Assembly: GCF_030704535.1 (NCBI RefSeq) | Contig: NC_081821.1 | Location: 1,317,001 to 1,381,000 of the forward strand | DNA length: 64,000 nt | Source: Vitis vinifera | Taxonomy: Eukaryota; Streptophyta; Magnoliopsida; Vitales; Vitaceae | Direction: 5' to 3' | In this document: positions 2,641-64,000 of the stretch, in pieces | Numbering within the stretch: position 1 is the stretch's first letter | How the letters are laid out: every line of letters starts with the position of its first letter | The notes under the pieces: generated by a model | Seen by the model: only the letters and a program-made list of their open reading frames with translations | Database searches by the model: none | Told to the model about the DNA's origin: nothing | Program-made: the position numbers and the translations under genes

Positions 2641-3159
2641 ATTTTTTTTTTTTAAAAATGAAGTATTTGACAAAATTTAAAAAATATTTTTAAAAATATG
2701 AAAAATCACTTATGATATTGAAAAATAATTTATAGTAACGTAAAATCACTTATAACATTTTTTCGAGAAGTACTAAGTGAGACTTTGTTTCGAGGTCTAT
2801 AAAAAACCTAATTGTCATTAGGGTTTATCCCAAGTGACAAATTATTAAGTGATTTTTACAATTTACCTTTTTCCTTTTTCTTTTTATAAATGGATTCATT
2901 TCTTGATATAGACGGAACACAGGCCTTTGAGGACTGGATAGTGATAGATGAATTCTAAAGTAGCAGATGCTCTCACCCAAGTTGAAAGGCTTTTAGAGTA
3001 TTATTATACTATGATCCATTTCTTGAGCCAAAAGAATAGTCTCCCAAAGTGATAGTACTCGGAAGAATGCAACCATTCTTATACTCGGACTGCCTTCTAT
3101 TAACTTCAAGACTCATTAGCTTCTCCCTCGGCAAACTCTCCGAGAATTAGATTGAGGAA

Positions 3160-3369
3160 ATGGCGGATTGGGCACCCATTTTGATAGGCCTCCTCCTGTT
3201 TATTCTGCTTTCTCCGGGGCTGATTTTCCAGCTGCCAGGCAGCGTCCGCCACATCGAATTCGGAAGCTTCGGTACAAATGGGAAGGCCATGCTTATACAC
3301 ACCATCTTGTTCTTTGGCATCTTTACCATTCTCATCATGGCTCTCAACATTCATATCTATCTTGGTTGA
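3160..3369 (+). CDS. DUF3339 family small membrane protein (copy 1)
   Basis: Encodes 69 residues in one exon. It starts MADWAPILIGLLLFILLSPG and keeps the family features: the MADW start, an SPGLIFQLPG turn, a GSFGTNGKAMLIHT middle, and a second hydrophobic stretch ending IHIYLG. Two membrane helices are visible, at about residues 4-24 and 45-66, with a short polar loop between. Sixty-nine residues is the usual family length, and the start matches the second copy at 7067. The biochemical function of DUF3339 proteins is unknown. Arabidopsis has relatives next to gamma-CAL genes (At5g63500, At3g48660, from memory), which fits the neighbourhood here. Confidence 0.9.
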   Translation: MADWAPILIGLLLFILLSPGLIFQLPGSVRHIEFGSFGTNGKAMLIHTILFFGIFTILIMALNIHIYLG

Positions 3370-6300: not shown

Positions 6301-7066
6301 CCTTGGGTTCAATAGTAATCAGGGTTGAGGTCAAGGATCAAAAAATTTTAAAAACCTAGGGAAGGGGACATATTATTATTAATTTTTTAAAAATATTGCA
6401 GTATATATAATTTAATATTTTCAAATTTTAAAAATGTATATTTATATTAGATATACTATTTTTTTATATAATTTTAAATTTAAAAATTAAACAAATTAAA
6501 TATAAATTATGAAATTAAAAACAGGGGATTTTTCCATCGGGGATGGGGAAATACTGACGGGGATGTCAGATTTCTTGTTCCCATTCCGTCTAGTCTAAGA
6601 GAAGAGTGGCGCGGACAAGGGACTAATTTTACAAATGGGTACCGGGATGGGAACCTTCCCCGATCCCGCCTCGTTTACATTCCCAATCCTCACCTTAATG
6701 ATAGAACAGAATGCATAACGTTGAGCCCAGAGCCCTTGTCCTTGGCCCAAACTATCTCTGGGCCTGAGGAGGCCCATATTCTTGATACGACAATCTCCTC
6801 AATCCTCATCAATCGAGATAAAGTGATAAAGACTGGTGTCCATTCTTATTTTTTAATTTTTTTTTCAGGTTCCAAGAAGATCAGAGCCGTTGAAGTCAAA
6901 TCCCCAGAAGCCGACACGTTCTAATGCAGATCAACATCTGTCGAGAAGCCTCGATTCGCACCCCTTTCTCCATCTGGGTTATATTTAGGTTGCTTAAGCA
7001 TCTTCTCCACTCAAATCCCTCTTCTTTTTCAAAGCATAAAGCTTTTTTCTTGAAGCAGAGTCAGTA
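3370..7066. other. intergenic region between the two DUF3339 genes
   Basis: The 3' UTR of copy 1 probably lies in the T-rich stretch up to about 3750. A MITE occupies 5068-5316. Near 6525-6690 are GC-rich strings such as CGGGGATGGGGAAATACTG and CGGGATGGGAACCTTCCCCG, typical of a dispersed plant repeat. From 6720 to 6790 several TGGGCC/AGCCCA motifs sit upstream of copy 2. No other gene is supported. Confidence 0.6.
5068..5316. mobile_element. MITE, sister of 8731-8980
   Basis: About 249 bases. The left end reads GGGTTATTTGATTAAAAGG and the right end, reversed, reads TTGGTTAAAAATTTGATGAA. The internal sequence (AAATTTGAAATTTAACC; TTATTTGGACAAAAATTTCC; AAATGACAAATGACATC) aligns along its length with 8731-8980. 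No coding capacity. Confidence 0.65.
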
Positions 7067-7276
7067 ATGGCGGATTGGGGACCGGTGCTGATAGCGGTGG
7101 TGCTGTTCGTGCTGCTGACGCCAGGGCTGCTGTTTCAAGTTCCTGGAAAAAACAGGGTGGTGGAGTTCGGAAGCATGCATACAAGCGGGGCGTCTATTCT
7201 GGTCCATACCATCATCTACTTCGGCCTCATCACCATCTTTCTCATCGCCATTGGCGTCCATATTTACACTGGTTAG
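7067..7276 (+). CDS. DUF3339 family small membrane protein (copy 2)
   Basis: Encodes 69 residues in one exon, starting MADWGPVLIAVVLFVLLTPG and ending IGVHIYTG. The layout is the same as copy 1: helix at about 4-24, a TPGLLFQVPGKNRVVEFGS loop, and helix at about 45-66. The two copies align without gaps, so they are a local duplication about 3.9 kb apart on the same strand. Codon use is clearly more GC-rich than the flanks. Upstream, 6720-6790 has several TGGGCC/AGCCCA motifs and TATATTTA occurs near 6980; these may form the promoter. Function unknown. Confidence 0.92.
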   Translation: MADWGPVLIAVVLFVLLTPGLLFQVPGKNRVVEFGSMHTSGASILVHTIIYFGLITIFLIAIGVHIYTG

Positions 7277-17124: not shown

Positions 17125-17172
17125 TCGGTTTCAATTTTATTGTGTAGTTGAAGGAGAAGAGGGGGATAAGCA

Positions 17173-19806
17173 ATGGGGAGAGGGAAGGTGGAGCTGAAGA
17201 GAATAGAGAACTCCACAAGCAGGCAGGTGACATTCTCAAAGAGGAAGAACGGCCTTCTCAAGAAGGCCTTTGAGCTCTCCATCCTCTGCGATGCCGAAGT
17301 CGCCCTCCTCATCTTCTCCCCCTCCGGCAAGGCTTACCAGTTCGCCAGCCACGAGTCCGTTCTCCTTCATCTCCATTTTTTTCCTTTCCCAATTCACCTA
17401 ATTTCACTTCTCTGCAACAACAAAAAAAAAAAAAAAAAAAAAGCATGAAATTGATCATCAATTTCGTTTGATGGGTGCAGCATGGACAGGAGCATAGCCA
17501 GGTATAGGAATGAAGTTGGGTTGATGGAATTCAATAATTACCAACGCTCTAGAACAATTGAGGTATCAACTTTAATTTCTTCTCTCAAATTTTTATTTTA
17601 TTTTTTTATTTTTGTCATATAAATTATAATATGAAGTCTTTTTCCTTCTTCATCATACGGTCTTTTCTTGCTACAACATATGGGCCTAGCACCTGGATCT
17701 CCATGTCTGATCGAGATGTCGATTAATAAAGACAAAAGGGTTAGAGAGAGAATTTGGACAAAAGTTATTGGTGATATTCCATTAATTTAAAGAAAAAAAA
17801 TGGGAAAATGATGGTGGGGGATACAAAATCATCTCATCTAATCATGTTTACTCCTACTTTAAAATATTAATCTAATCTTGATAAGGAGGTACAGTTTCAA
17901 AGCTTCTGATAATATGAATATATTGCTTATGAAATTGCACCCACATGATCAAATCATGTGCACAATTTGATATCTCTAGGAGTTAATTAAGCAAATTTTA
18001 AAAGTTGTACACAATTAATCTCCTATTATGTATCAGAGGACTCATAATCACACCATTAATAGATGTGAAAATCAGCAAGATTTGTCACAACTTAATATGT
18101 ATGCAAGCGCCTTGATTAAGTTTTTCTAATGATGTATACCCCTTGTGCTATTAGGGTTTTTCGGTCTGGTAAAGTCGAACACTATGAACTCCACTGAATC
18201 TGTACTTGTTTTAAGTGTTTGTAGGAGTGGACTCACGATTTACATTTGATTTCTGATAGCAGTTTTGGATGTCTGAAATCGATAACTTGAGGAGAACAAT
18301 AGACACCTTGGAAGCAAAACATAAGTATGTAAATTAAATCAGCTGCTCACTATCTTCTTCTTGATCATCTTCATCTTCATCATAATAATCACTGCAGTTA
18401 TCATAATTGTCATGTGTTGCAGGCATTTGGCCGGAGAAGATTTGTCGACGCTGGGCATGAAAGAGCTAAAACAGCTGGAGAGGCAGCTGAAAAACGGGGT
18501 TGAACGAATTCGTGCTAAGAAGGTATAATTCATTCATATATATATATATATATATACAGAAGGCCGATATATAGAGTGATATGGAGATCATGTAAATAAT
18601 ATTTACGTAGTACTCATTCTGTTGGCATTCTTTTGAGGCTTAAACCATGGAAAACATCCTCACTTTCACTGATTTCTACTGAGATTCTTTTCGAAATTGA
18701 ATGATTAATTAATTGTTTGACAATTAGTTAATTTTTTGTTGGACAGAGGCGAATCATTTCGGAGCATATCAGCCTGCTTAAAAAACGTGTGAGATTCTAA
18801 CCTAATTAACCCAATCCCTTCATCAAATTAAGATCATGTGTTCAAATTGTTAGGATCATGGGAAGTTATGTCATTGAAAGACTGTAAATTCCATAAAAAA
18901 ATATGGTGGACTCATCATCAATACAATCTAAGTAGACTAGCTGAATGGTATGGAATTCACCAGAAGGTTGATGTGAGCAAGATGAAGCAAGAACTCACAT
19001 TAACCAGTAGAGGATTCCGATTCCAGAGAATTTGCCTGTATGTTAATGCCCTTACAGAGATTTACTAATTAATGTTTTCTAACTTTCTTTTTGGTCATCA
19101 CGATTGAGCCAAAAGTAATTCGAAGTTGAACGAAATTAAGTATATTTTGTTTTTTGAAAAACTTAATCAAATTCGAACTTGTTCATGAAAAATGCAGCAA
19201 AGGGCCCTGCAAGAGGACAACACCCGCCTCCAAAAGAAAGTGAGATGTTCAGAACTTCCATCTTATATATACATTTATATAAAGATCTATAGCTTGTTAA
19301 TTAATTCGATTTTGAAGTCTGCTTTCATTTGTACTATGAGGTTAAGCTGCACGAGGCCAACTTAAACACCAGAGCCTTTGGAGCAGAAGAATGTGATGCA
19401 TTTGGGAGGTAAGTACTGGTTATTCCAAGTTAATTTATAGAAGATCAATTCTTCTGAAGAACCTAATCTTATGATATCTCCATGGAATAATATGCCCACA
19501 ATTTGTAAACCTAAGTTGTTATATATTTTAACACCTTAATCTTTTGGGGGAAATTAAGAGCAGTGGCAGCAGTGGTTTTGGCGGTCCACATGACGGGGCC
19601 GGGATATGAGAAAGACGGGCAAATGGGCAGCAAGAGCCATCATCAGACTGCAAGAATGTAAGCTACATAATGAAAAAACTTAGGACAAATTTATCGAACA
19701 ATGGCTTGTTGTGGCTTGAGAACTATTCTTGTTCATGCATGTTCATGAGCTTAATGAATCTTTGCTTAACTGCAGGCTTGCTGATCAGGATGGAGGTGAC
19801 CCCTAA
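17173..19806 (+). CDS. MIKC-type MADS-box transcription factor, probably TM8-like
   Basis: Nine coding exons: 17173-17354, 17481-17562, 18263-18324, 18423-18522, 18747-18788, 19198-19239, 19341-19408, 19559-19657, 19776-19806, giving 235 residues. Exon sizes 182, 82, 62, 100, 42, 42 are the classic MIKC pattern. Residues 1-60 are a full MADS domain (starts [20 protein letters not shown]; has [20 protein letters not shown]). A short I region follows, then a K domain (about 88-170) with [29 protein letters not shown] after the MADS domain points to the TM8 group rather than SOC1, AGL6 or FUL, but this rests on memory. The last two exons are uncertain: using the AG at 19559-19560 as acceptor instead gives a short tail ending at the TGA in GGGATATGA (about 19606-19611). 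A nuclear DNA-binding protein acting as a dimer is expected from the family. Confidence 0.85.
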
Positions 19807-24203: not shown

Positions 24204-24293
24204 ACCCAAATGATATCATGTCTTAAGTCCAAATGAGACCAAGCCTAAGCAACAAAGCCAGTCGGCTGAGAGCCTGAGAGAGAGAGGAGAGAA

Positions 24294-27200
24294 ATGGCGA
24301 GTCTGCTTCGAGTTTGCAGAAAAGCCCTAACCTCCACGGCCACGGCTCAGCCGCTTCTCTGGAGGGGATACGCAGTCGAATCCGCGGCAGCGATACGAGA
24401 ATCTCCGGATCGAGTGAAATGGGACTACAGAGGACAGAGAAGGATAATTCCGCTGGGGCAGTGGCTCCCGAAGATCGCCGTCGACGCCTATGTGGCTCCC
24501 AACGTCGTTCTCGCCGGCCAGGTCACCGTAGGGGACGGATCGTCCGTTTGGAACGGCTCCGTTCTTCGCGGCGATCTCAACAAGATCACCATTGGGTTTT
24601 GCTGTAATATTCAGGAGAGGTGTGTTATCCACGCTGCTTGGAATTCTCCTACAGGTCAGGATTTTCTTATTGTTTGGATTTTTCTATTTCTGTTTGGTTG
24701 GTGAGAAAACTGAGATAAAAGAGATAAAAGATGTTGGGTTTTTGTTTTGTTTTGTGTTCAACTAATAAGCCAAATAGGCTGTCGTAGGGTTAGTTGAGAT
24801 CAGAAACTATGAATGTTTATAAAAGTTTAGAAGTTTAGTTGTCGTAGCCTACATTTGCGTCACAATTCACAACCAAACAGAGGATTGTGGAAATCGATAT
24901 TTCTAACGATTCCATTGGCGTTCTTTGGTAGCAAATAATGTTCGTCTAAGGAAAATTTGATTTTCCACATGGCTTATTTTAATGCTGTATTAATTGGAAG
25001 AGTGACTGTATATGGTTTTGGAATTGAATTTTTCTTGCCTGCATGAGGGTAAAGTTAGGGTTTAGTGTTAGCAGTTAGGTAGATTCAAAAGCCTGCAACA
25101 TGAATCAGTAGAGGCCAGAAGCTATGCAATCTGAAATATTGTTTAGTTTATTTCGAGCTCAAAAATGCAAAATCAATAATTATGGGGCAACTAAAAATTG
25201 TCTAACCTGTGAAATTTCTCAAATTTGTTCTAAGGAGGTCCAGCCCCGTATTGTTTACTCTGCCTTATAAGGAACTTTTTGTGTCCTAATTCGGCTGAAA
25301 ATTAGAAGGGTCTTGGTGAGGATGGCTTAGGGATATGTTATTGCTATATTGTGAGGTCTATAATTGATGTCTTTTTATGATATTTTTCTTCCTAACTAGT
25401 ACTACAAAACATCTGGGTTAACGATTATTTGAGCCTCATCGTTTCTTATTGGGGATTCTCTGAAGTCAGTGGTCCCTGAATAATGGTGGATGATTATTTA
25501 GAGGCCGGAATATTTGAAATCCCATGCCTGTGAGGTATGGACTATGAGTTTTGCAAAATTTTAAGATGCCACATCATACCTCCTTTATCACAATGGTTTT
25601 AGTAAAGTTATGAGACACCTTGATATAGGACAACCCTATGATGGTTGCCTTCAAATAGGTGGATTAGGGCTTTTATTTTTTTTATTTTTTATTTGGTTTA
25701 AGGAGAGGAACAAGGTATAAAGTTTATTATAGTAAAATAAAATAAAAATATACAGAGAACGAAAATAACAAGAAGAAGGGATGGAAACCTTAGAGTTGCA
25801 TTAAAGCTTTCTAAGAGTCTCACTTAGAAGAAAACCAATGGAGTCTTACCATTGAAAATTGCAAAGTATGCAAGAAAACATGATATTATTAATCATTAAT
25901 CCATTACTTTGGTTTACATCAATCTAATTCGAATTCTCCTTTGACTTAATTAGCTACGTATAATTTGACTCTAATAAATACTAATCTTAATTTGTATTGT
26001 TTTCGTTGCTTTTAGGCGTTTCTAGTGCAAGCCCTTTATTTACCTATAAAAAAAAATACTAATCTTAATTTAATTCCAACTAGTATTAATCTCAATTTAA
26101 TTCCAACTAATACTAATTTTCTTTCTTGATGTATATCTTGGAAATTCATCTTCATCAATTGCCCCAACTTGAAAAAAAAGTCAACCTCAAGTTTTAGTTA
26201 TTTTCCACGGCCAATTGAAATTTCGAGCAATGTCTTCCACCATTTCTTTCTTTTTCAACTCTTTACCATGATAAAATAGGATTTCAAGATCTCTTAAACT
26301 TGTTCAATTTCATGCAAGATAAGTACCAAACTTTGAAAGATTTTCCAATGTTGTGAAATAAGTTGATGGTTGTCGAAATAATTATGTATCATCAACAAGC
26401 TTGTGGCAAGTTGCTTTCCACACTCTTCTTGTAAATTGTCTTGTAGAAGAATCTAAGATTCTTGAATTCCCTATAATCAAAAAGAAATTTCAACAATTCT
26501 TATTATATGATCATAGGATTCTTCATGTTTGTCATGAATCATGATAATATTCTGCCTTGGAAAGTCAAGCATTGGTTCTTCTAAAGCTTTTGCAACTTCG
26601 TTAAGCTCTCTTATAGGTTGTTCTAGGATCAGTTCCATTACCTCTTACATTCTAGATTTATCATTGACAATTTCTTTCTCTTTACTTGCAACTTCAAATT
26701 ACCTCTTAATGGGAATATTTGATGGCTCTTCCGAGTTCAAGGATGTTAATTTTTCCTCTAATTGCTATGATGGAATTTCCTCTATTGGACAAAGGATCTT
26801 CTTATGCCCATTGCACATAAGTGTGTGACTGTTCTCATATCCATCATGTTGGACCCTTTCATAAAAAATTCATGGTTTTCCAAGCACAACATGAACAACT
26901 TTCATTCGCAAAACATCACACCATATTGATAACTCAAAATTGTTACTAAAATTAAATGTTACTAGACAATGAGAATTCACCAAAATAGATATGTTATCTA
27001 CCCATGCTATTTGATAGGGATTTGGATGCTCTCCCGTCTTTAGGTTAAGCTTCTCAACAAGTTCCTCTAAAGCTAAGTTGGAACTACTACCTCCATAAAA
27101 AATCATAATACATAGTCTCCTTTGGCAGGTAACACGAGTTTAGAAGATGCTAGTACATCGTCAATCCTTCTCATCATTTAGCCTTGGTATGTTCATTAAT

Positions 27201-30183
27201 AGTTGCATAAAAAAGTTGTAACCTTAAGTCACTCTTTTGGCGTGTCTATTTAATTTATCTTTCTCTTTATCTATAAAAAAATGTTGCTTTGCTCCTCAAT
27301 TGCATATGTCTTCAAGCCAAAAACTTTTGCTCTTATACCAAAATTGATGTAGAGCGACACTAGGATGGTTGCCTATAATTAAATAGGTGAATTAGGATTT
27401 TTATTTTTTTAGGGTTTAAGGAGAGGAATAAGGTATAAAGTTTATGGTAGCAAAATAAAATTAAAAAATATAGGGAAAAAAGATAGGGAGAATAAGGGAT
27501 AGGAACCTTGGAGTTGTACTAAGGCCTTTTAGGAGCTCACCTAGAAGAAAATCAGTGGAGTTTCACCATCGAACATGGTAAAGTATGCGATAAAACATGA
27601 TATTATTAATTTTCAATCCATTGCTTTGGTTTACATCAATTGGCTCTATTTATAGGCTTCTCTAAGAAATCCAAAGTCTACTAAGATTCTAATAACCTAT
27701 TATGACTCTAATTTTAATTCTCCTATAACGAAACTAGCTACTCATAATTTGACTCTAATAAATACTAATCTTAATTTAGTTCTAACTAGTACTAATCTCA
27801 ATTTAATTCCAACTGATATTAATTCTCTTTTTTGATGTATATCTTGGAGATTTATCATCATCACACCCCATCATCCTAGAATATATAGATGGATTTTAAA
27901 GTTTAGGAGCTTTGTTAGGGGGATTTGTGGCACTTGCATGTTCCAATGGCCCAAAAGCTATGGTCCATGATTTTAATGTTATTCCAGGTACCATTGTTTT
28001 CGTGGAGAAGATGCAAGAGGTCTTTGCTAGCTGCATGGAACATTGATCAAAAAAGGCAAAAGGAAGGTGTGGAAAGTGGTGTTTGTTTTTTGACTGAATA
28101 AAAAAGGTCAAAATATTTGGTTTTTTCTATTTAGCTAAAAGTAACCTGTTGATATCAATCAATATAACTAAACATAACAAGTTCACTTTAATTATGTTGG
28201 TTAATATCAATAGATTACTTTTAGTTGAAAATAAAAAAGTTAAATATTTTGGTTTTTTCTATTCAGCCAAAAAACAAACAGCACCGAAGTTAGCCTTTCT
28301 TTGTGTATCCTAGGGTATTTGGAAGGACCATAGTGAAAGATATTTTAAGGGACTGAAGTTACTGGAGTGGAAGCTGAAAGAAATAGTTTGATATCTTTCT
28401 TTTGTTGAACACTGGAGTGTAACTCATCTGGGAAAAGGTCTTTTTTTCAATAGAATTTATCAATGGTTTAGGCTGCCTTGACTGAGGCTCTAGCACTTCT
28501 CCTTTTTATCTTTGGTTGCTTGCGTGCCTGCATACCTTGGATGTACCTGGATTGTACACCTTTTTGGCATTTTTAAAAAATAGATATAAAGGTCTTGTTG
28601 TGAGGAAGGCAGGGGCTAAAAGCATTGCAATCACCATTCAGCCATTATTGCTGTGGTGCCTCAGGCTGGAAAGTGAGATGGTAATTGACCACATGGGCTC
28701 TGGGGCGAGCACACCAGGCTTAGAATAAGCTAATGTATGGCTTATTAAGGAGTTGATGCAAGCAAACTGCCATTAGGTTTCTTGGTGAATGGGTACGGAA
28801 ATTTACACTCTGATGTAAAACCTTTGTTGATTGCATTTTTTCATCTTGTACTGATCATTTTTCTGAATTTCATTTTTGTTTTGTTTTGCTTTTTTTTCCT
28901 TAAGAAACCAAGAGTTGACACGTATAATATAGCTAGCTTCCCAGTTTGGAGTTGGTTATGCCCATCACAGGCATAAACTCTCTGGTTTGTTTGGGGATCT
29001 CACTATTCTATCTTTCAGTTATTAGCTTCCTTCAAATTTCTATGTTATAGTAGGTTACCTAATCTAACCTGAGCAGGGTTTGGTGGGGAAGTCCAGTGAA
29101 ACTTGTGGCTTGCAACTTCTAAGAAGGCTTTGGCAAGATTCTTCTTTAGTAGGGTGTCTGGTGTTGCTCTTTTATACAACATTAGCACCTCCTGCTGCTT
29201 CTGCCATGATGATTTATATACTCACTTATGTTAGTAATGACAAAGGATTCTACTTTTGAGGATTGCTTTCCCTGATATCCTCCCAGTATTTTGTTATCTG
29301 GTAGTTTTTGAATCAGCTCTTCAGATGTTTGAAAATTAAGTGGGTTACCTTATATTAGTTTTGAAGTTTGCTTTCCTCTGCATCCTCCCAATATTTTGTT
29401 ATTTTGTGAGAGCTGGTAGTTTTTGAATCAGCTCTTTGTAAATTTGACAACAAAGTTGATTACCATACAACCTGATCTTTCCTAGATCTGCTATGGTACC
29501 ATATTTCTTCTTGCATTGTCATATGATGCTTGTCTTTGTTCTCTAGATGCACAGGTCCATACTTTGAATGTGAATTGTTATGTGATGTTGTTGGAGATAT
29601 TCATAAATCTCTTTCATGTGCAGATAATTGATGAGAATTATTGTGTCAAGCAAACTATAACTAAGATAGTAATACATATATCACAATTTTTTCATTTTGA
29701 ACATAAAAATAAATCATGAACAAACCCACAAGCAAATCCTGTATGATATTATCTGATCTTTACTGAGGACTTTTCAGTTGATACTCAATTTCTTTCCATA
29801 CATCAGGATTACCAGCACACACATTCATCGAGAGGTATGTGACAGTTGGTGCATCCAGTCTGTTGCGGTCTTGCACGATCGAACCTGAGTGCATTGTTGG
29901 GCAACACTCCATCCTTATGGAAGGTTCTTTGATGGAGACCCACTCTATCCTTGAAGCTGGATCTGTTCTTCCCCCAGGAAGAAGAATACCAACGGGTGAA
30001 CTATGGGCTGGGAACCCAGCAAGGTTTGTCCGAACTCTGACCCATGAAGAGACCCTAGAGATCCCTAAACTTGCTGTCGCTATCAATGACCTGAGCACAA
30101 GCCATTTCTCAGAGTTCCTCCCTTACTCAACAGCATACCTGGAGGTCGAGAAGCTGAAGAAGTCCTTTGGGATTTCAATTTGA
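24294..30183 (+). CDS. GAMMACAL: gamma-carbonic-anhydrase-like subunit of mitochondrial complex I
   Basis: Two coding exons, 24294-24654 and 29807-30183, joined in phase 1 to give 245 residues. The first ~25 residues (MASLLRVCRKALTSTATAQP...) are Arg/Ser/Ala-rich with no acidic residue: a mitochondrial presequence. From about residue 55 the sequence has hexapeptide repeats of a left-handed beta-helix (VAPNVVLAGQVTVGDGSSVW, NGSVLRGDLNKITIG). Of the zinc-ligand histidines of true gamma-carbonic anhydrases only the VIH one remains. The GHSAVLH-type segment reads GASSLLR, so catalysis is not expected. This is the mark of gamma-CAL1/2, which join gamma-CAs in the matrix-facing domain of plant complex I. 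The 5,152-base intron contains a gypsy remnant and a MITE. Confidence 0.93.
25621..26157 (-). repeat. LTR (3' LTR in element orientation)
   Basis: Aligns with 27345-27863 over most of its length, e.g. GAGAGGAACAAGGTATAAAG against GAGAGGAATAAGGTATAAAG. It lacks the ~75-base block with the TATA-like box and carries a different ~75-base insertion near 26000-26075. The divergence shows an old insertion. Confidence 0.75.
27345..27863 (-). repeat. LTR (5' LTR in element orientation)
   Basis: Ends in TG...CA on both strands. It contains GCCTATAAATAG on the minus strand at 27645-27656. The primer-binding site lies directly beyond its 27345 end. Confidence 0.75.
28079..28284. mobile_element. 206-bp MITE in the gamma-CAL intron
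   Basis: The left end GTGTTTGTTTTTTGACTGAA and the reversed right end GTGCTGTTTGTTTTTTGGCT pair over about 40 bases, continuing to CAAAATATTT in both arms. An inner inverted pair (TTAGCTAAAAGTAA / TTACTTTTAGTTGA) extends the fold. No coding capacity. A hAT-like origin is possible but no clear target duplication was found. Confidence 0.7.
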
Positions 30184-32499
30184 TGATCTTTGATACCATG
30201 CTCTGTATCTTTTAGTTTGTTTTTGTTCTCCTTAAAGGGAAATAATCAAAGTCTCCAAAGACTAGTAAAAAGCTTTGGTGGTCCTTGTCTTTTTATTTGA
30301 TTTTGAAGCCCAGCAGAAGAACTGGATTATACTGGTGTCTAGCGAGACTCAAGAAATTTGCAGAGTGATTTGTATTGAAGCTCTATTGAGGCTCTGAATG
30401 CTGATAATGTTAATTTTTTAAGTAACTTGAGTTACTAATTAGGCATGTAAATGGGCTAGGCCTGGACCCTTTTGGCTTGGGCTGACGATGCCCTTACCTT
30501 GGCCCAAAATTTTGGGATCAACCCATTCGGGCTGGCTTCGGGTCGGTGAACATCTTTAGAAAAATAAGCTCAAATAAAGTTGGATTTGATAATTTCAATA
30601 AACCATCATATTCAATTAGCTTTATCTTGGAGTTAAATTTGAATTGACCGGTAATCAAATAAAAAATAAATAAAAAAAGGTAATTCCATAACATAGTAGT
30701 AGTGAAACCTAGTGGACAAATGATCAAATTGTCTAGTCTCAAGCGGGTGTCAAATCTAATTCCATTTAGGGCTTTATATAAAACAAGCACTAGAGAACGG
30801 AGAAAATAAGACAAAAATATTAGGTATATGGTAGGCAAATAATACTGGCTAGCGAATCTATGGCTTCTTTGTGTCTTTAGTGGAGGAGAGATCCACCAAC
30901 CACTCATACGAAGCTTCCCCATCATTAACAATTCTAAACATCAATTATTCATTATTTCTCCTCGTAAATACTCCTTATTTTCTCTTCTCATTAGTCTTTC
31001 TACTTTCTAGACACCTTCCAAAAATTCGTCAAGAAAATGTTACACCCCCATGACACCCTCGTTAAAAAGCTTATATTATAACATAAAATATCACTTACTT
31101 TAATAAAAATGAAACTTCTAGAGTTATGAAATGTTACATTGGTAACTTGAATATCCTTTCCTTTTGGCCATAAATCCTATGAATCTTGCCTAAAATGATC
31201 CCATCCGCTAATTATTTGGCCCAAAAAGTGAAGGGTACTTAATGATTGGAATACCCAATTATTTTAATGAAGTGGGCAAGCCAAAACTTCCAACATTTTG
31301 ATAAATGATGACCTAAAACGAATCTTCTAGGGTGGTTTCAAGGGGTAAGTAGGGCCTATTAGGATATTACTGATGATACGTATAATTTTAATGGCACATA
31401 ATCCCACCAAGGTCAGACCAAATAAAAAAATATATATATCCAATTGGGCTGGCCACCATAACATTATGTGTTGTGGAGCATATCGTGTTCCACTTCATTG
31501 CAAATTTGCAAAGTTGGAACACCTAATTAAACTTGGACTCATCATAAATTGGAATATAAGTCCACTATGACATCAATATTTAAAGAAGGAAAAAGTACAT
31601 ACATAAACCTATTTATAATATTTTTTATTTATTTATTTTAATTTTAAGTTAAAGTCAAAATCATAATTTAAAAAAAATTATATTATACCCATAAATGTTT
31701 TATTACATATGAATCCATTTATTACGTAAATTAAAAAACGACTTTTATAAAACTCATTTTTTTTTCTGTCGTAATCCACCTAAAACTTTTTTTATGAAAG
31801 TTGCTTCAACAAATAGAAAAATGTTGCTACATTTTAAAATTTGATTTTATCTTCTATTTTTTAAAGTTTGAAAAGTTCTTATTACCTATTTATAAAAATA
31901 AAAAAAATCCAAACACTATTAAAAATTATGTTTTATCTTCTTATACCACTTTTTAACTTTCAACTCTCAAATTTATCTATTTGCCACCGGTTAACTATTA
32001 TTTTACCCATGAGGTTATAAGATAACAATGATGATGTTATTATAGTAGAACTGGTCTAATTAAACAAATGGGTTTACTATTAGAAGCACTAATTATTAAA
32101 AAATATAAAAAATAATTTTTTTTATTTTTTATTTTAAAAAGACTCTGATAAGAAAAGGTACCTCCTAGTAATTAAACAGGGTGCCAATGTCATCAACCAC
32201 TACAGCATGGGCTGTGTGGAAGACCTAATGGAAAATTATCTCTCTTCTAAATGAAACAAAGATTTGGACATCTCAACCATTCTTTTCTCTTGCTGATCTC
32301 CTCCATTTTTTTTCCAAAATCTTTCCTCTTATATACTCACCACCAATCTGGCAATATCCCACTACTCCCTAATATGATTTTCCTTCTCTTTCTCTCCTTC
32401 CAAACACTAGTCATTATCACCATCACATCTCTACAAGCTATGTGAAGATATGTATTGATATTGCTCTCTTTTTATCAGTACTCATGGTCAGGTTTGGTA
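30184..32499. other. gamma-CAL 3' UTR and intergenic region
   Basis: The 3' UTR probably reaches about 30400. GGGCY-rich DNA at 30445-30545 resembles the gamma-CAL promoter style but no gene starts there. The rest is AT-rich. TATATA at about 32333-32338 in a CT-rich stretch could belong to the MIR171 promoter. Confidence 0.45.
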
Positions 32500-32625
32500 G
32501 AAATGGTGAGTATGAAGAAGGTGGGGATGTTGGAATGGCTCAATCAAATCAAATCTCCCAAGGGTTTTGGGTCCTTTAATCTGATTGAGCCGTGCCAATA
32601 TCATCATGTTCACTTCTCCTACACA
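32500..32625 (+). ncRNA. MIR171: MIR171 precursor hairpin
   Basis: The 21 bases at 32582-32602 (TGATTGAGCCGTGCCAATAT plus C) are the mature miR171 of the c/d type known from grape and other plants. The opposite arm at 32526-32546 (GATGTTGGAATGGCTCAATC plus A) pairs with it along its whole length apart from G:U pairs and a two-base mismatch. The loop is about 35 bases (32547-32581), containing CTCCCAAGGGTTTTGGG, which adds to the stem. The star strand would be about 32528-32548. Conserved targets of this family are HAM/SCL6-type GRAS transcription factors. The open frames crossing the hairpin on both strands are fortuitous. Confidence 0.92.
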
Positions 32626-34106
32626 ATTGTCACACTTACAACACCCCTTTATTTTTTCTGCTACTGGGTTCATTTTCTTTCTTTGGAAAGGTAAAAGTAG
32701 AACTCCCACTTGAGTTTTTCATTCATTTTCTTTTGAAGAAGTGCTTGGAATGAAACTCTAGCCAGTGGTGCAATTCAGTTTTTTTGTTCTTTTCTATATA
32801 TTTGTTCAATTGGTATTTGTATGATTCATTGGGAGTGCAAGCACTGCCTGCAGATTTTCCATTTAAGAGGTCTCCTGGAATTTGTTTTCCCCAGAAAGTC
32901 ATTTTGATCTTTCTTGATTTTTTCTTGTAATGTATCACATCTGTTGTTGAGGGTTTGCAACAATGTGACTGCTTAAACCTGCCCTAAAATCAACTTTGAT
33001 GTAGACATAATAAAAGGTTTTTATTTCATTACACGATACCAATTGATATCCAGATAAGATAGTCAAAACCCGATTCAAGAAATGGCATCAAGGTGTTGCC
33101 AGAGGAGTTACTGGGCTAAATGATGATTGAAAATAGGTCAAAATGGGTGTGATATCGAAAGTCATAAAAGGTTCGATTTTTCTTATGTCTCTCCTATATC
33201 TTCAAATTATAGCAATTAAATACACTTTTGTACTTCACTAGAATGGTTAAAAATTCTCATATTAGCACACCCATGCTTTGGTTGCAGTTTCAATGTGGGA
33301 TATATATATATAGGTTTCTTTAAACTTGCCAAACAACTGTAGTTTAATTATCTTTGATGAATAGTTTTTGGTATCATCCAAGAAAGTTATACAGGTCTAA
33401 TTTGATTCTTTCCAATCAATCCTCAAGCTTTTCTAGTGTATTGGTTGAGCTTTGTGATATTTGGTCTTGAACAGGTTGTCTCTCAAAAGGGTTACCTTCC
33501 ATTAGAGTAAGAATCATCTCAAAAAGGGCTTACCAATGTGAGTTTTCGGAGTAATCTTCAAGGTTAGGGTTAGGATTTATAAACCATACCTGAGGGTCTC
33601 CTCAAGAGGATGTTCAAGCTGCCTCCCCCGCCTCTATGAACTTTATCGAGTACTTGCGAGTAACTAGAACATGGTGGTGGTGGTTGGTTGTTTCTTTTTG
33701 CATTTTAGATTTTTTTTTTTCTAAAAAAAAAAAAACGAGGACTAATTTGAACCTAAAGTCAATATCATGTTGGAGTAAAGGGCCAATTCAATCTAAAATT
33801 CTCCCAGGAAAAGGTTACCAAGTAGGAAGAATTCGGCACATTGATTTGAGGTTGGTAACACTAATTTTATACTGAGAAGAAAATGGACTCATACGTGTAA
33901 TATATTGGCATAATCACATAGCAAGGCATCCATCCAAGGGTAGCAAATCTTGAGTCATATGGCTCTATTCTATACCCTACAACACCTAAATATCAATAAG
34001 ATTAAAATTCAGGATATTCATTGCTAGAATTAAGTGACACGTAATTTCAACTCCATATCATGTTCCAGAAATGTTGAAGAAAAATGTATAGAGCAATGAG
34101 CAAAAT
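32626..34106. other. intergenic region, MIR171 to F-box/FIST gene
   Basis: The first part may be the rest of the primary MIR171 transcript. 33870-34106 probably includes the 3' UTR of the F-box gene (minus strand). No other gene supported. Confidence 0.45.
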
Positions 34107-37100
34107 CTAACTCTCCAGAGACGATGGAGTATGGGATATCACCAGGTAAACAGTGCTGTAATAGTGTAGATAGCTGCGGGGGGAGCTTTCTTCCTGACCA
34201 CCTTGATGATCTGCAGAGCTCAAATGGACACGCCCAATTTCCCCGCCGCACATTATCCCTGCTAAGGGAAACCCAGGAAAGTTCTCCAAGAAGGGGGAGC
34301 TATCAACATTTGCTTGTCCGAAGAATGAGTCACCGCGGCCATAGCAGGAGAAGATGATACCTCCACACACTTCTGTCTTGTCGCCACCATCAGCAACACC
34401 CCTAAAATGATAGCTGTTTTTGTGGGTCCAGGCTTGCTTTAGATTTCTGAACTCTTCAGAGACATGGCGACAAGAAGACAAAGCAGTATCAGAATCGGAA
34501 CGGTAGAAACGAAAGGGATCACCAGTTTTGATGCCAACGCCGTCAACAAAGAGGTACTCTTCATCTCCTCTATGCCACAAAGAAACAAAAATCATTTTCA
34601 GAGACATCATACCAAATGTTAAATCTATGATCATTCTTTCTATTAACCCTTTTTTGCCCTCAAATAAGGAATGGAATCCTTTAAGTTAAGACAGTGAATG
34701 TACACTTTACAAGGCATTAGAGGAAAACCATCTCTGGATGCTAATTTATAATATTAGGATAGGACGGGTTTTTATTTATAATTGTAGTGTTCTCCCATCA
34801 TCTTATCTATCATCATCCAGCAGAACTAACGCAATTGTTCTATGACGATTCAAGTATTATCTTTTAGCCTTTTAGGTGACATACCCAGTGGCCAAGGTTT
34901 GTAGGGGGTTAAAGCACAGCAACCAACAATAAGTCGTTCGCTTTCTACAGTAACCTACTTGGGTTTAGGAATTCAGCACCCCTATCAACACTAAATTTTT
35001 CAATACCTACTCAGGTTCAGGAATTCCATCCGCTATCCTCCCCAATTTTGTTGTCTCTGCACATGAAAACTAAGAATAACTACAGTAATAACAGCAACAA
35101 ACATATGTTGCCTTGAAATGTTCAAAAAAGGTGCACTCCTATGACATTGACAAATAAATCAAAACGTGCGTTTGAAAGTGTCACAAAGTCCTAGTTGATG
35201 TGTTTCTTTTTGTAAAGAATATTGTATATAATATTTGATATATTCAAATGTCATTGTAATATTAAATTTTTAAATTCCTTATAGAATAAGGAAAGTTCTT
35301 AGGAGTAATTCTATAACTATTCTAGGTCATAAGTGGAAAATATTATGAGATGGAGATACTATACATGGTGGATAGAGAAGTGAGAAAAAATGATAGCCGG
35401 TGGAAAAGGGAGGTATTCTCTACAGTATAATTGAATGGTCTCTCTCATCCATGAATGTAGGCATGGCTAGTCGAACCACATTAAAATCCTGTTTAACTTT
35501 GTAAGAAATCGTCCAGGTAGAAATGAAGTGATTACTCCCTACATTAAGATCGGTGCTTTGAGTTCAACAGATCTTTTCTCACTAGGGGGAAAAAAGAAGC
35601 AACCATAGGAGGGTGCAAGTCAGGGTGCAACCCAAGTACATGTCAAAGATACAGGAGATATTCAGAGAGAAAGGAAGAAAGACAATTCAACAGAGACTTA
35701 TTCCCATTCTATGTCAGGGTCTGCAAAAGCTTGAGTGATTAAAATTGTGAAGTTCCAGAGCAAGGGCCACACCTGTTTAAGCTGGGCGTACAGACACATG
35801 AACCTATTCATCTTTTACTGACAACCTTTCTATCCATCCTATCTAAACTACACAAGTTCCATGCACAGGTAACTGCCATAAATTGTGAATAACAAACCAT
35901 GCAGCAAAAAAATTTCCTACAATTTCATTATGTCTAAGCAGCAAAAATTCCCAAAATTCTCTCTCCATTTAATCCACAACCCAAGTAATGGTAAATATAA
36001 AACCAATTTGGCTGTCAAATTGATAATTTATACCTGTGATCCCATGTCTACCCTGGCTTAGTACAATTACACTCCTGTATCTTCTATCATCATTTACTTT
36101 TCAGTTCTATTATCCCCCTATTTTCTGTCATCATAAAAAGCCTTTTAATTCTAACAAATCTCTCCTAGATTTTAACTTTCTATTTACCTGTAATCTCATC
36201 AATAAAAAATTATAGCACCAACAAAGCAATGAGTTATGCTAATATTCATTGTTATAGTTCCTTTTCACTTTTTCAGTTCTTACATGTGTGTGTATTGATC
36301 AGATTATTGTTTTCTTCATTTATCGTCTATGCTATAATAGGATGCCTTTCTAGTTTTCACAGGTCAATGCAACAATGTGAGTGGAAAATAAAATAACCAA
36401 GACCAACAAAATATGACAAGGAATTTTCATAACTTACCCTAAAACGTCATGGAATTCCAAGGTTGTTACCCACCTCACCTTCTCAGACCCAATGGAACAC
36501 TTTCTTCTTTTCGTAACCCCAATGTACAAGTCATGAGAAGCATTCTCATTTTCCATCTGCCATATAATATCTTTTGCTTTAGGAAGAGAAAGAAATTTAG
36601 AAACTAAAAAACAATAAAAAATAAAATTCCACTAATATTAATAGAGGGTTTCACAGGTGTAGTATATGTCATCTTGTGAATAACAAAGACACTCTAGTTG
36701 CAGATATGCAAATAAAATAGTCCAAAAAAACTAATTACTGCATCTTTATTAAAAAACACAATTTTCAAGTTAGTTTCAGCTTCCTTTTGCAATTTTTTGT
36801 AATGATATACCACTATGATCATTTGTAAAAGGTTTGAGGTGAGCAAAAGCCTCAGCAGTAGTTGACCGCCTTTCCACATAACAGGAGGTGACTGCTGAAA
36901 GTTTTCAAGTTGAGATATTTCAACTTTCTTTTGCATTTCTTTCTTCTGTCATTATGATTATGATTATCGTTAACGAGTTTGAGAAAATCAAAAACTTGAA
37001 CAGTAGGTTGCTGCCTTCCCAAATAAATACTTCTGGAATAATCTATTTTGAAAGCACTGCCACATTAGAGAGTTTAAATAACGATACTGCCTAATTCTGA

Positions 37101-40100: not shown

Positions 40101-40476
40101 AATGAGGACGAATAGGCCTGGAAAGAACTGAATCCAGAACCTCCTTTACAGCATCCTAGATCATGAACCAAAAAAAAGGAAAAATCACAAATCCAAACAA
40201 ATTTTCTTTAGGTTTCCAGAGAAACAAACAACTGATGTGCTGTCCATTCAAAAAATGAACCATGCGCTTGTCTATAATCTACAATACCTGAAAAGAAGGA
40301 TTGAGAGAGATTGCAGAGGCGAGCTTAGGGCGAGAGAGAACGTCACCGGCGGCGCGGCGCCAGGAGCGGCTAACGCACCCCGCGTTTGCAAAGGATAAGG
40401 CTGGGAGTCTGGAGAGAATGTTCTGAAGAAGATCTTCACTGAGAAGAGCGACACCACCTCCTCTTCCTCTCTCCAT
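34107..40476 (-). CDS. F-box protein with FIST domains
   Basis: Ten coding exons, all in phase: 40476-40288, 40155-40048, 39969-39877, 39785-39660, 39313-39212, 39087-39048, 38174-38019, 37644-37457, 36556-36438, 34569-34107, giving 527 residues. Residues about 9-50 (LLSEDLLQNILSRLPALSFA...VSRSWRRAA) are an F-box, which would link to SKP1 in an SCF ubiquitin ligase. The rest matches the FIST_N and FIST_C sensory domain pair (RPHFAIACIGLKFSLERTHK; GIVLIVGFMPGLKV; CYGRGDSFFG; FPLAGIMCGGEIG). The order of domains corresponds to Arabidopsis At5g63520, beside gamma-CAL1 At5g63510, as here. The ligand of plant FIST domains is not known. The MERGRGGG start is chosen because the F-box follows at once; the longer frame from 40517 is in another phase. 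Intron 9 (36437-34570) holds an LTR-like fragment. Confidence 0.92.
35155..35560. mobile_element. possible solo copia-type LTR in intron 9 of the F-box gene
   Basis: The string GAGATGGAGAT...AGCCGGTGG...TCTCTCATCCATGAATGTAG followed by GGCATGGCTAGTCGAACCAC resembles the downstream part of copia LTRs in woody dicots. Ends are not defined and no internal domains are near, so a solo LTR or fragment is the best reading. Confidence 0.4.
37917..37939. repeat. poly-T run in intron 7 of the F-box gene
   Basis: About 23 T residues followed by a G-rich stretch (GGGGGGTGGGGGGG). It lies in the intron and does not touch splice sites. Confidence 0.9.
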
Positions 40477-40562
40477 TCTGAGGATTTTCCCGAATTCTGT
40501 GAAGCCCCCGTTTCCATTTTATAGGCAAATCAAATTAGCATGATCCACCCCTCCCCCTTTTT

Positions 40563-43826: not shown

Positions 43827-46368
43827 CTAATCCCAGAAGAAGGGAAGCTTTTGAGGTGCCTCGTTCCCAGAGGATCCATCAGATCCAATGTGAAATATTC
43901 CTGGGCAATGGATATCAGTGACACCGGCATTGGAAACCAGAACAGAATCCACAGGCTGATTGTTGTAATGCAGGCTTGGGGCTGAGGGCTGTGCTAGGGA
44001 GACTGAGTTAGGCTGCACCATGTTGCTCAAACTAATACCTGATGACTGGGTCTGCGGTGATGACAGAAGAGAGAGAGCACAATCTGACTCGAGGACTTGG
44101 TTTGTTAGCCTATCATAGAACATTTTGCAGCCATGGCCGGCGAGTGGTTGGCAGACAGGAGCTTCAGAAGTTGTGTAGTTGCTCAGAGAGGGGTGGTCAG
44201 CTTGCAAGAAAGTCAGTTGCTTCCCTCCTTTGTAAAAGCTAGAGGAGGATCCAAGATGCAGATGTTGTTTTTCCAGCAAGGGTAACTGTTGGTGCTGGTT
44301 ATAAAGTATAGCACCTTCCTCGGTTTTGACAAGTCCAGCTCCCCAGTTGGGGCTCATCATAGCAGTAGTAGGATACAGATGGGGACTAGAGAATGGTAAC
44401 AATCCCGAGCCTGAAAACAGTAGAAAACATATTCATTCAAAGAATTAACTTCAATTCCACAAATGAAGCAGCAGACTATCTGTGTATCTAGTTTTAGTCT
44501 CGATTCATCTAAATATAAGAGCAATTACAACTCATTTGGAGGTTCAAAATTTGTCATAATCTGATACTCTCACAAATGATAAATCAGAATCAACTTGGGA
44601 TTTAGTCTAATTGGGCTCAGGAATGTGTTTGGTAGAAAATCAAAGAAGAACTTACTAACCCTTTTTGAGTCTCATGCCAAACCTTCATATAAGTTTCTAG
44701 ATCATGTTCAATTAAATTACTCCCAAAAGATTTGTTGCCCACAATGATAACTAGAAGTAAGCAACATTAACACTTAGAAGTTGAGAAGGGGAATCATAGA
44801 GTGAAACAAAAGCTTCACTCTTCATGATTTTCCATTGGAAAAAATACATGTGAAATGGACCACAAAAACCCATTTTAGGGACTCCTGAGCCTATAAATAA
44901 CTTCCAAAAAATAAAACTAAAAGGAAGAGAAGAAATGATGAAAACAATCCCTCAAATACCCCATCTTGTAAATGGGAATTCAAACCTTGGTAATTGGTTA
45001 AAAAGCTTCCAGGACGTGACAGGGGCTCCGGCTGAGGCTTTCTTCGCCGTCTATTGTGCCCATCAAGACGTTTCCTGCAGCTTCTCTTTCCCTCATCAAA
45101 TTCCTCAAGCGAATGAAACCTATACAAAAGGCAAAGAAACTATTGAGGCACTTTAGGCCTGTAAAAAGTCAAGCTACAAACAGACAAGGAGTGAATGCAG
45201 AGGAGGACAAGAAACTCATAATGCAAAGGCATCGATCAAAACATAGATAAGAACAAACATGATGTAAGGGAGTATTAATGCCTCAATGGGCATCAACATT
45301 AGGAGGAAAGTACATAATTATTCATAACGGAAGAAGAGGATTCATGCGTCCATCTGAAACAGCAAAAAGGCCAAAGATAAGGTCTAAACTTACAGCCTTG
45401 GCAACTAAAGCCCCAACAAACCAATCTTTCCATATCTTGCCTGCAAGCCTAAAACAAGGAAAAACCATGATGTGCTATCTATATGCAATAAGTATACATA
45501 AGTTCAACTTTTTCCCAATTCTTTTGGAGCAAACTGTCATTGTAACACTGTAACAATTAGCAGGAATGGAACAAAACTTCATTTTTAACTTTGTGCATGG
45601 CAAGTTGCTAGGCCATCAGGTAGAAATTACAAACAACTTCTATCAGAACCTTGTATCCAGACAATGTGCTCATTACCCATCATAATATATCGCCAAAACC
45701 TGGATGACAACAGACTGATAATCAGGTTGCAATAATATACACAAGGTGGCTAACAATGGCTCCAAACAATCAACAGAAAACACCCATGATAAATCCAACA
45801 AATAATTGAAGACAAAACAATAAAGGGTTGAAAGATATGTAAGAGAACAAATTACAGCAATAGAAACTGATGTAATGAGCAATTTTGTGACAAAAACTTA
45901 TAGAAAACCAAGTTCGTTAGCTCTTTAGAAGCACCACTACCATGATTCATACCTGCTGCACTGCTGGCAGAACCTCTGTGTGTGGCCACCAATTGTGACT
46001 TGGGCGGTCTTAGAATGGAGCTCACAGACCTTATGCCTCCTATGGTACTCTCTGCAATTACTAAGGTCTGAATTGCACCCATCAACAAGGCAAGAAACAG
46101 TCTGGCTTCCATTGTTAGTGGCTCTTGCCCTCTTTGATGATCCTGAAGGCAAGGGAGCGGCAATACTCGAAAATTTTTGCTCCTTCAACTTATCAGCAAA
46201 GTCACTGCTGGGATTACTGACTTGACCAAGCTTCAAATCAATGGAAAAATCCCCTCCAGTCTTATGTACTCCAGAGCTGCTTGTCCCACCAACCACATCT
46301 ATGTTGGGAATGGCTTCTGTCTCCAATTCAGTCAAATCCCAAGAAGGTGTCTTCAAGTTCCAGTCCAT
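43827..46368 (-). CDS. SPL13-like: SBP-box transcription factor, SPL13-like
   Basis: Three coding exons: 46368-45953, 45119-44986, 44410-43827, giving 377 residues. The start [16 protein letters not shown] is the typical SPL13 N-terminus. An in-frame ATG at 46422 exists, but TTATAG at about 46373 looks like the acceptor of a 5' UTR intron, so I use 46368. Residues about 93-167 are the SBP domain ([40 protein letters not shown]) with two zinc sites and the [13 protein letters not shown] nuclear signal. The domain is split between exons 1 and 2 at the usual Arg codon (SR|FHSLEEF). Exon 3 carries an intact miR156 target (44061-44080, residues about 294-300, ALSLLSS). The family binds GTAC cores and promotes the juvenile-to-adult transition; regulation by miR156 is expected. 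Its neighbour is SAE1, as in Arabidopsis. Confidence 0.93.
44061..44080 (-). promoter_or_regulatory. miR156/157 target site in the SPL mRNA
   Basis: The minus strand reads GTGCTCTCTCTCTTCTGTCA, the canonical SPL target of miR156. It lies inside exon 3 and encodes ALSLLS. Confidence 0.95.
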
Positions 46369-46882
46369 AAAACCTATAATCTCTTGTATACTTCTTCTAC
46401 TTCTCCAAGCCTTATCACCCACACTCAGTTAAGCGTCTCCCTTTCACTCTCTATGTGATCCCTTCCATGAGAAAATATTTCAAATTCCATCAGAACAAAC
46501 TAGAGTAAATCAGTCAAGAACACCAAGTTTGCAGAAATGGGACTCAAATAGAAACCCAAACAAACAACAACCCAACAATAATAACGAAAATGAAAACAAA
46601 AACCCAGTTCCTATCTTTCTTTCTTCTTTCCACTATCCAGTTCGCATGAAATAATCCGATTTCAAACAACCCAGAATATAAAAACACAAGTAAACACAGA
46701 AAAAAGTAGCAATGAGATAGATAAAACCCCAAGAATGGGAATCTTCAATAACACATTGCAATTTTCATTTTGGCAAAAGCAAGAACCCCAAATGTAAAAA
46801 AGGAAGAACATTTATTATCAACAGTGAAGGTTCAGGGTAACTGCAAGGAAATTGGAAGCAAAATAAATAAATGAATACAGGT

Positions 46883-61895: not shown

Positions 61896-63995
61896 TCATG
61901 AGATGGGAAAATATGATTGCATCTGCCTCAAGATGTGTTCAAAGTTCTCGGTGGGCTTCTCCACAGGGTGTGTATGAATGCCTTCATAGGTTGTGACTAC
62001 AATCTCTTCATCTTTTGAGAGGCGTTGGACCTGCTTCTTCACATTGCAGTCTTTATACGTGCACCGGTAGTAGCTTCTACAAACAACAAAAATGAAAGAA
62101 ATAATCAATATATCATCTGTGAATATAAGATCATGTCTTTTTCCACTTCAATCCCAACACGAATGATAAAGTTAATAATTTGATTAATAAAGTTAGGTTA
62201 TGTCTTATATAAGTCTATATGATTAATATTTCAACTAAATTTATCAAATTATTTAATTAAAAATAAATTTAAAATGAGTTAAATAGTTTAATGTTATAAT
62301 TATATTAACTAACCGAATTATTAAATAAGTTAGCTCGAGTTGATAAAAAAACTATCTATTTACTGAATAGATGATACAAGTTCATACTAATTTAACCCAA
62401 ACTTAATTATATTTAACCTAAACATGTGAAAAACATATTGGATTTGAATTATATTAATGAATCATATCAAACTTGACCACATGCATAAAGAACTACATGG
62501 TAAAAAATTCTTAGACATGGAAACAAGTGAAGTTTGGGAAGGAAAGAGAAATTACTAAAGGGTATGAGAGCAATTTTAATGCTGTGGAAGGCTAAGCAGT
62601 GGGCGAGGAGATGTAGGAAGTGGGTAAGGAGCTAAGGTGACGATGCTGGCAATAATGGAGATGGTGGTGATTGTGTCCATTTCTAAGCTAATGCTTGTGG
62701 TGGCATTAGTGGTGTTGATGCATGGTGGTGACTTAGCTATATTGGCAATGCAGTGATCTGATGGCGATGGTGATGGTAGTGGCAAGAAAAAGAAGTGTAT
62801 TTCTTTTATGTTATCTAAATGGAGCTTACCTAAGATCTATAACACTGTTTTGAAGAAATTTTTAATGAAATCCTATAACATATGGTTTTTTTCCAAGTGG
62901 AAAGAGTCGCGTCCTAATATACTAATGGCAAAGTCTGTTTGATACCTAGGAATTGGAATGAGAATATGATGGAAAATAAATCAAAATTCTAATAAGAATG
63001 AGATTTGGTCTCATAATATATATATATAATTATAATTTTTTTTATTCTGAATCTTATTATAAAAACAATCCATACACATCAACAAATAAAAATGAGAATG
63101 GACTTGACTTTTGTTCTATTCCCATGCCCTATTCCAACATTCCAAACACGACAATAACCCGAGAAAGAGATGCTATGTGAAGAATACAAAGAATAATATG
63201 ATCTAAAATTTGATTAGAATCAAATCACCTACTTCAAAAAATGCAATGCAAAGACTTGTACTCAAGGCAAGTAATCAAGCTGCAGTTTGAGAGTATGTCA
63301 TATGAATACTAAACCACATATCATATAGGGCAAATCTGAATGGTCTCTTCCATATGCCTTGCAGTAAATTGCAAACATGATGGATCATGGACCGTACGTA
63401 TGGTCCTTTCCTGTATATACTAGTAGTATTCATGTGATAGAATCTGACTGCAGATCAGAACTCATCATACATGATGATGATCTCTCTGGGTCAATACATT
63501 CTTTGCATTTTCATGCAAAGATGCATGGTTGCAGGAGTATCATGCCAAACTGCAACTGGGATTTTGCTTTCTACTTGGTTATGCAGGCAGGCAGGCAATG
63601 GTACTACCAGGAATAATGGAGAAGACTGTTGAGATATTCTTGTATAAGAAATTTCCATGAAAACCCAAGATCAGAAAACCAAAAGAAATGACAAAATGAT
63701 GATGAGAGGTACTAACTGACCTGGGAAATTTGTTGTTCTTGACTGCTTTCTGCCCATATTTCCTCCATCGATACCCATCATCAAGGATATCAACATGGCT
63801 CCTCGTTTGAAACGCAAATCTGTGCTTTCTAATCTTCTTTTGACCTTCCTTTTTACCTGGTTTTTCCTTGGTCTCAGAGGCATCAAAACCAGCACTCTTA
63901 TAAATGTTCATAGCATGAAAATTTGCCATGTTTGGTGGAAAAGGATTTGCGGGTGATTTTGATGAACCGGGAAAAAGTATTTGGTGGCCTTCCAT
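61896..63995 (-). CDS. group IIc WRKY transcription factor, WRKY75/45-like
   Basis: Two coding exons, 63995-63721 and 62076-61896, giving 151 residues. The N-terminal 50 residues are variable, then a Lys/Arg-rich stretch ([18 protein letters not shown]). The WRKY domain begins [20 protein letters not shown], with WRKYGQK at 77-83. The zinc finger is C97-X4-C102-X23-H126-X-H128, the C2H2 type of group II. The intron splits the Arg codon of FPR|SYYRC, the conserved intron position of group IIc. The tail [15 protein letters not shown] is typical of the WRKY75/45 clade. It binds W-boxes (TTGAC). WRKY75 relatives act in phosphate starvation, senescence and defence; the role here is inferred. The start lies five bases from the window edge, so a longer N-terminus cannot be excluded, but the MEG start and length fit. 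Confidence 0.94.
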
Positions 63996-64000
63996 TAGAG

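Follow-up and report, generated by a model that had tools for sequence, protein, structure and literature searches.

The plus strand of the 64-kb window (the whole stretch of grapevine DNA that was analysed) carries at 32516-32614 a locus that is best explained as a conserved, ordinary plant MIR171 gene, with its own plus-strand transcript that would be diced to a product silencing GRAS transcription factors; we put the probability of this reading at about 0.96. It is based on the sequence, the predicted fold, family membership, the duplex geometry and the genomic setting, while transcription, dicing, loading and targets are presumed by analogy with the known MIR171 family. miR171 is a very old, well-studied small RNA that tunes meristem genes. 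The locus is an already known kind of gene, its place between two protein genes is expected and not surprising, and none of the features tested departs from the family. The parts of the hairpin are as follows.

32516..32614, plus strand: MIR171 precursor hairpin (Rfam RF00643 extent); cmscan 75.9 bits, MFE -44.3 kcal/mol
32517..32527, plus strand: lower stem, 5' side; 9 pairs with 32601-32611, mostly paired elsewhere in the 411-nt fold
32528..32548, plus strand: predicted miR171-5p (star arm); 2-nt 3' overhang register, 21/21 identical to rco-miR171e*
32549..32581, plus strand: upper stem and terminal loop, 33 nt, from the fold
32582..32602, plus strand: miR171-3p, predicted guide strand; 0 mismatches to miR171

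Family membership, fold and duplex geometry

A sequence match search of the 64-kb window located the mature miR171 sequence TGATTGAGCCGTGCCAATATC without mismatches at 32582-32602 on the plus strand, where a preliminary description of this DNA had placed it. The nearly complementary arm that it had proposed at 32526-32546 is the reverse complement of mature miR171 with 3 of 21 letters different, and the distance of about 35 bases between the arms proved to be 35 nt (32547-32581). These two arms are the only matches to miR171 with at most 3 mismatches on either strand of the window (mean 0.00 in 100 shuffles). Scanning the whole window on both strands with cmscan against Rfam release 15 yielded two matches at the gathering threshold, namely RF00643 (MIR171_1) on the plus strand at 32516-32614, covering model positions 1-101 of 101 with 75.9 bits (E 6.9e-13) vs a gathering score of 48 bits, and its mirror on the minus strand. 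With E up to 1, the region 30200-34100 gave beyond both MIR171 matches just mir-2063 (23.1 bits vs a cut-off of 100, E 0.55), which is taken as a chance match, and a tRNA search found none. Compared with the RF00643 consensus, the loop is two letters shorter here; otherwise no departure was seen. The motifs GAGCCG and CAATAT, named for the MIR171 mature sequence (PMC10340099), both lie in the perfectly matching 21-mer on the 3p arm, and the same 21 letters are given for vvi-miR171a/c/d/i (PMC2822795, Table 1) and printed for rco-miR171a-f of castor bean (PMC3722108).

It is the sequence identity to miR171 together with the covariance score that makes the case for MIR171; complementarity alone is insufficient. 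In a random control, 5 of 4000 21-mers from the window had an ungapped complement of at least 18/21 within 120 nt upstream, 18/21 being the value of the hairpin itself.

The 99-nt hairpin folds at -44.3 kcal/mol, compared to a shuffle mean of -23.8 (sd 2.95; z -6.95; 0/200 shuffles as good). The wider segment 32480-32640 (161 nt), which had been suggested for folding, reaches -53 kcal/mol (z -3.24, 0/200 as good), with a small, distinct 5' helix next to the miR171 stem. Since the minimum free energy fold joins 32582 to 32546 and 32600 to 32528, the strands 32528-32548 and 32582-32602 leave 2-nt 3' overhangs at both ends, with 18 of 19 duplex positions paired and A32534/G32594 as sole mismatch. 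These overhangs require exactly the star position that had been proposed, about 32528-32548. A plant microRNA gene is expected to have a single stem-loop of less than 300 nt, 2-nt 3' overhangs and no more than 5 duplex mismatches; the present hairpin has 99 nt, such overhangs and one A-G mismatch. The duplex pairs are unchanged across folds of 99, 161, 301 and 411 nt, and with 501 nt of context 20 of 21 mature positions have pair probabilities of 0.87-1.00, the remaining one being the mismatch.

The lower stem consists of 9 pairs and two single mismatches, out to 32517/32611, and 32517-32525 switch to 32392-32400 as their partner when 411 nt are folded. Base-to-loop dicing normally calls for a stretch of about 15 paired bases beneath the first cut, so the shortness of this lower stem is a minor reservation.

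The hairpin has the lowest energy of 5116 99-nt stretches, of which 5114 came from a 25-base grid on both strands and two were the Rfam spans at their exact positions, a sampling that favours exact placement; of the grid stretches that cover the hairpin, the best (-36.7 on plus and -36.3 on minus) rank 10th and 12th. Part of the folding energy stems from composition, since G+C is 43% in the hairpin vs 31% in the window, for which the 99-nt shuffles control. Chance origin was rejected on the miR171 match against shuffles, the fold geometry and the z of -6.95. Among 19 inverted-repeat pairs in 31000-34500 the top one is the hairpin (32517-32561 / 32567-32611, 73% complementary), and several of the others are A+T-rich. 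Altogether, the reading as a MIR171 precursor made in the preliminary description is supported by the RF00643 match, the exact mature sequence, the duplex geometry and the position.

Genomic setting, coding potential and strand

The window contains 126 stop-to-stop ORFs of at least 70 aa, and 26 chosen ORF queries, part of the window's ORFs with six taken from around the hairpin, were compared with Pfam. Upstream, 24270-24701 (plus) has a Hexapep match and corresponds by sequence to the solved mitochondrial gamma carbonic anhydrase-like 2 (7aqq chain x, E 4.4e-52), and ORF 29782-30180 (plus), with Hexapep below cut-off (20.8 vs 27 bits) and a TGA at 30181-30183, is read as the last gamma-CAL exon. 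Gamma carbonic anhydrase-like 2 is a subunit of plant complex I. Downstream lie FIST_C at 34110-34685 (minus) and an F-box at 40282-40518 (minus), whose order fits the earlier view that they form one gene. The neighbours proposed for the hairpin were thus recovered as matched exons on either side. They are convergent, and the matched exons end outside the hairpin, which lies in a gap of about 3.9 kb, 2.3 kb and 1.5 kb from their ends, so that it is probably an independent unit and not part of the neighbouring genes. The following features around it are compatible with a primary transcript, and their functions are putative.

32330..32335, plus strand: candidate TATA box (TATATA), the only TATA[A/T]A on plus in 32151-32520
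32374..32445, plus strand: first short ORF after the candidate TATA, 23 aa, in-frame part of a 64-aa ORF, possible miPEP
33009..33014, plus strand: candidate poly(A) signal (AATAAA), the only AATAAA on plus from 32602 to 34200

These motifs would suit a primary transcript close to 0.65 kb long. The 23-aa ORF as a whole was ruled out as vvi-miPEP171d1, which has 7 aa (PMC11055055).

Nine ATG ORFs of at least 20 aa lie in 32200-32900, and these overlap the hairpin:

32484-32579 and 32503-32694, plus strand: ORFs over the hairpin
32488-32673, minus strand: ORF over the hairpin
32606-32713, plus strand: ORF overlapping the hairpin's last 9 bases

That spurious ORFs cover the hairpin had been stated correctly, but their number, given as two, had to be revised: three, of 31, 61 and 63 aa, cover the hairpin largely or completely and a fourth touches its end. 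Such coverage would favour a protein-coding gene at this place, yet none of the six locus ORF queries reaches the Pfam cut-off (one match is listed, E 0.15, 12.4 vs 27 bits), and the miR171 match and the fold already account for the sequence. We rejected the coding reading on the Pfam result and regard its probability as negligible.

In favour of a minus-strand precursor, RF00643 also matches on minus at 32514-32612 (62.8 bits vs a cut-off of 48, E 1.2e-9), the 161-nt segment (32480-32640) deviates further from shuffles on minus than on plus (z -4.30, 0/200 shuffles, vs -3.24), and antisense miRNAs have been reported in grapevine for MIR172 (PMC4434875, PMC3479107). However, a hairpin's complement tends to be a hairpin too, the plus strand has the higher Rfam score (75.9 vs 62.8 bits) and the lower energy (-53 vs -49 kcal/mol), and positions 11, 13 and 18 of the minus-strand product deviate from miR171. 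Position 11 adjoins the slicing site, and a mismatch there is expected to make cleavage less efficient. The main text of PMC3479107 has 0 mentions of MIR171, its three '171' strings falling in the references. The minus strand as sole precursor was rejected on score, energy and product mismatches; a reverse-complementary MIR171 from this strand, alone or in addition, is improbable, and the additional form is compatible with a plus-strand MIR171 gene. The span 32514-32612 (minus) is noted as a candidate reverse-complementary miRNA.

Elsewhere in the window, a perfect miR156 target site (20/20; 0 in 100 shuffles with 2 mismatches allowed) was observed at 44061-44080 (minus), some 11.4 kb away from the MIR171 precursor, within ORF 43830-44432 (minus), for which Pfam gave no match. 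The site is on the same strand as an SBP domain at 45940-46428 (minus), about 1.9 kb downstream of the SBP exon, and both probably belong to one SPL gene. A WRKY domain is present in two parts, 61899-62147 (minus; profile positions 21-59) and 63582-63998 (minus; positions 1-22), which probably lie on separate exons. SBP and WRKY are characteristic of plants, and with gamma-CAL, MADS, SBP and WRKY the gene content of the window resembles that of a land-plant nuclear genome. Two DUF3339 small-protein ORFs, 3151-3366 (plus) and 7040-7273 (plus), lie about 3.9 kb apart and possibly represent a tandem duplication, and 17170-17445 (plus), with an SRF-TF match (E 1.1e-27), is a probable first exon of a MADS-box gene.

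The 5p arm and the place of the locus among MIR171 genes

The 5p arm at 32528-32548 is identical over 21/21 letters to rco-miR171e* (TGTTGGAATGGCTCAATCAAA), a sequenced small RNA of castor bean (PMC3722108), which supports the dicing register of the hairpin. Castor bean rco-MIR171e therefore shares both its 3p and its 5p 21-mer with the present locus, a likeness that concerns those two 21-mers. Tomato miR171i, a low-count row of 0.9 and 4.0 RPM (PMC4814767), is 1/21 letters off, as is tobacco nta-miR171*, in a register shifted by 3 (PMC3237444), and the 5p printed in the grapevine Vvi-miR171a row differs at 2/21 (PMC3937062). Four other MIR171 5p arms, a set leaving out the stars of rco-miR171h and i, showed 5, 6, 7 and 7 differences. 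In the main texts of the papers searched (supplements excluded), the core TTGGAATGGCTCAATC or longer forms of it occurred for castor bean, tobacco and tomato, and variant cores in the grapevine paper PMC3937062. The few 21-mers compared suggest a MIR171 subtype, common to distant eudicots, whose 5p arm is conserved and of which this hairpin would be a member.

In castor bean, rco-miR171e* was reported to be more abundant than its miR171 strand (PMC3722108), and the reads summed from the tables of that paper over five libraries amount to 7480 for 5p vs 3111 for 3p. The near-equal 3p counts of rco-miR171a-f suggest that 3p reads are shared among these loci. Because the 5p arm is the same as castor bean's, one letter off tomato's and outnumbers 3p in castor bean, it might be a regulatory small RNA itself, and the locus a miRNA gene with two products, of which the second would have its own, non-GRAS targets; we consider this conceivable but unlikely.

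The same conservation bears on whether the locus could be a decayed or silent copy, a homologous hairpin that lost transcription or dicing. The lower stem is short and can re-pair upstream, and with four or five grapevine loci having one mature sequence (PMC2822795, PMC6366190) the loss of one would be cheap. Against this, the mature strand is unchanged, the Rfam match spans the full model, and a 5p arm so close to those of castor bean and tomato argues for continued selection, which leaves a silent copy very improbable compared to a functional MIR171 gene.

Which grapevine MIR171 gene this is may be narrowed down tentatively. Besides MIR171A, C, D and I, 171j is also given with the mature sequence found here (PMC6366190). 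In published read counts, a and i form one pair and c and d (plus j) another (PMC4523783, PMC6366190), a pairing that is likely due to the shifted read TTGATTGAGCCGTGCCAATAT given for 171d (PMC3937062). The base directly before the mature strand is C here, which fits the subgroup to which this shifted read is not assigned, so the locus would fall with vvi-MIR171a/171i, which have the same 3p. If reads and names are right, it is not vvi-MIR171a, because of the two differences in the 5p printed for that gene. vvi-MIR171c/d also have the same 3p, with the 5p printed for Vvi-miR171c differing at 6/21 (PMC3937062). Given the Vitis host, our tentative guess, at slightly less than even odds, is vvi-MIR171i.

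Predicted function and significance

By analogy with the family, a plus-strand transcript of its own, between the two convergent protein genes, would fold into the 99-nt hairpin, from which DICER-LIKE 1 would excise the 32528-32548 / 32582-32602 duplex with its 2-nt 3' overhangs. The 3p strand would be loaded into ARGONAUTE1 and guide cleavage of HAM/SCL6-type GRAS transcription-factor mRNAs, with a presumed effect on meristem maintenance and phase change. Cleavage of such mRNAs by miR171, with roles in meristem upkeep and phase change, is documented (e.g. PMC8910752, PMC4449180), a GRAS factor is stated as miR171 target in Vitis and Prunus (PMC4434875), and treatment with vvi-miPEP171d1 was associated with lower VvSCL27 (PMC9953219). 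Judging from its family, the product of the present locus would likewise silence HAM/SCL6-type GRAS factors. Within the window, none of the 26 ORF queries matched a GRAS family in Pfam, and miR171 target-like sites (at most 3 mismatches, both strands of the window) were limited to the hairpin's own arms. The target list of miR171 may be wider than GRAS, since VvMYB154, a non-GRAS gene, has been reported as a target of vvi-miR171c, with transient overexpression resulting in lower resveratrol (PMC11548312).

With this locus, the annotation gains a non-coding gene that ORF-based annotation would miss. Moreover, as the 5p arm differs between paralogs while several of them have one 3p, 5p reads could tell which MIR171 locus is expressed.
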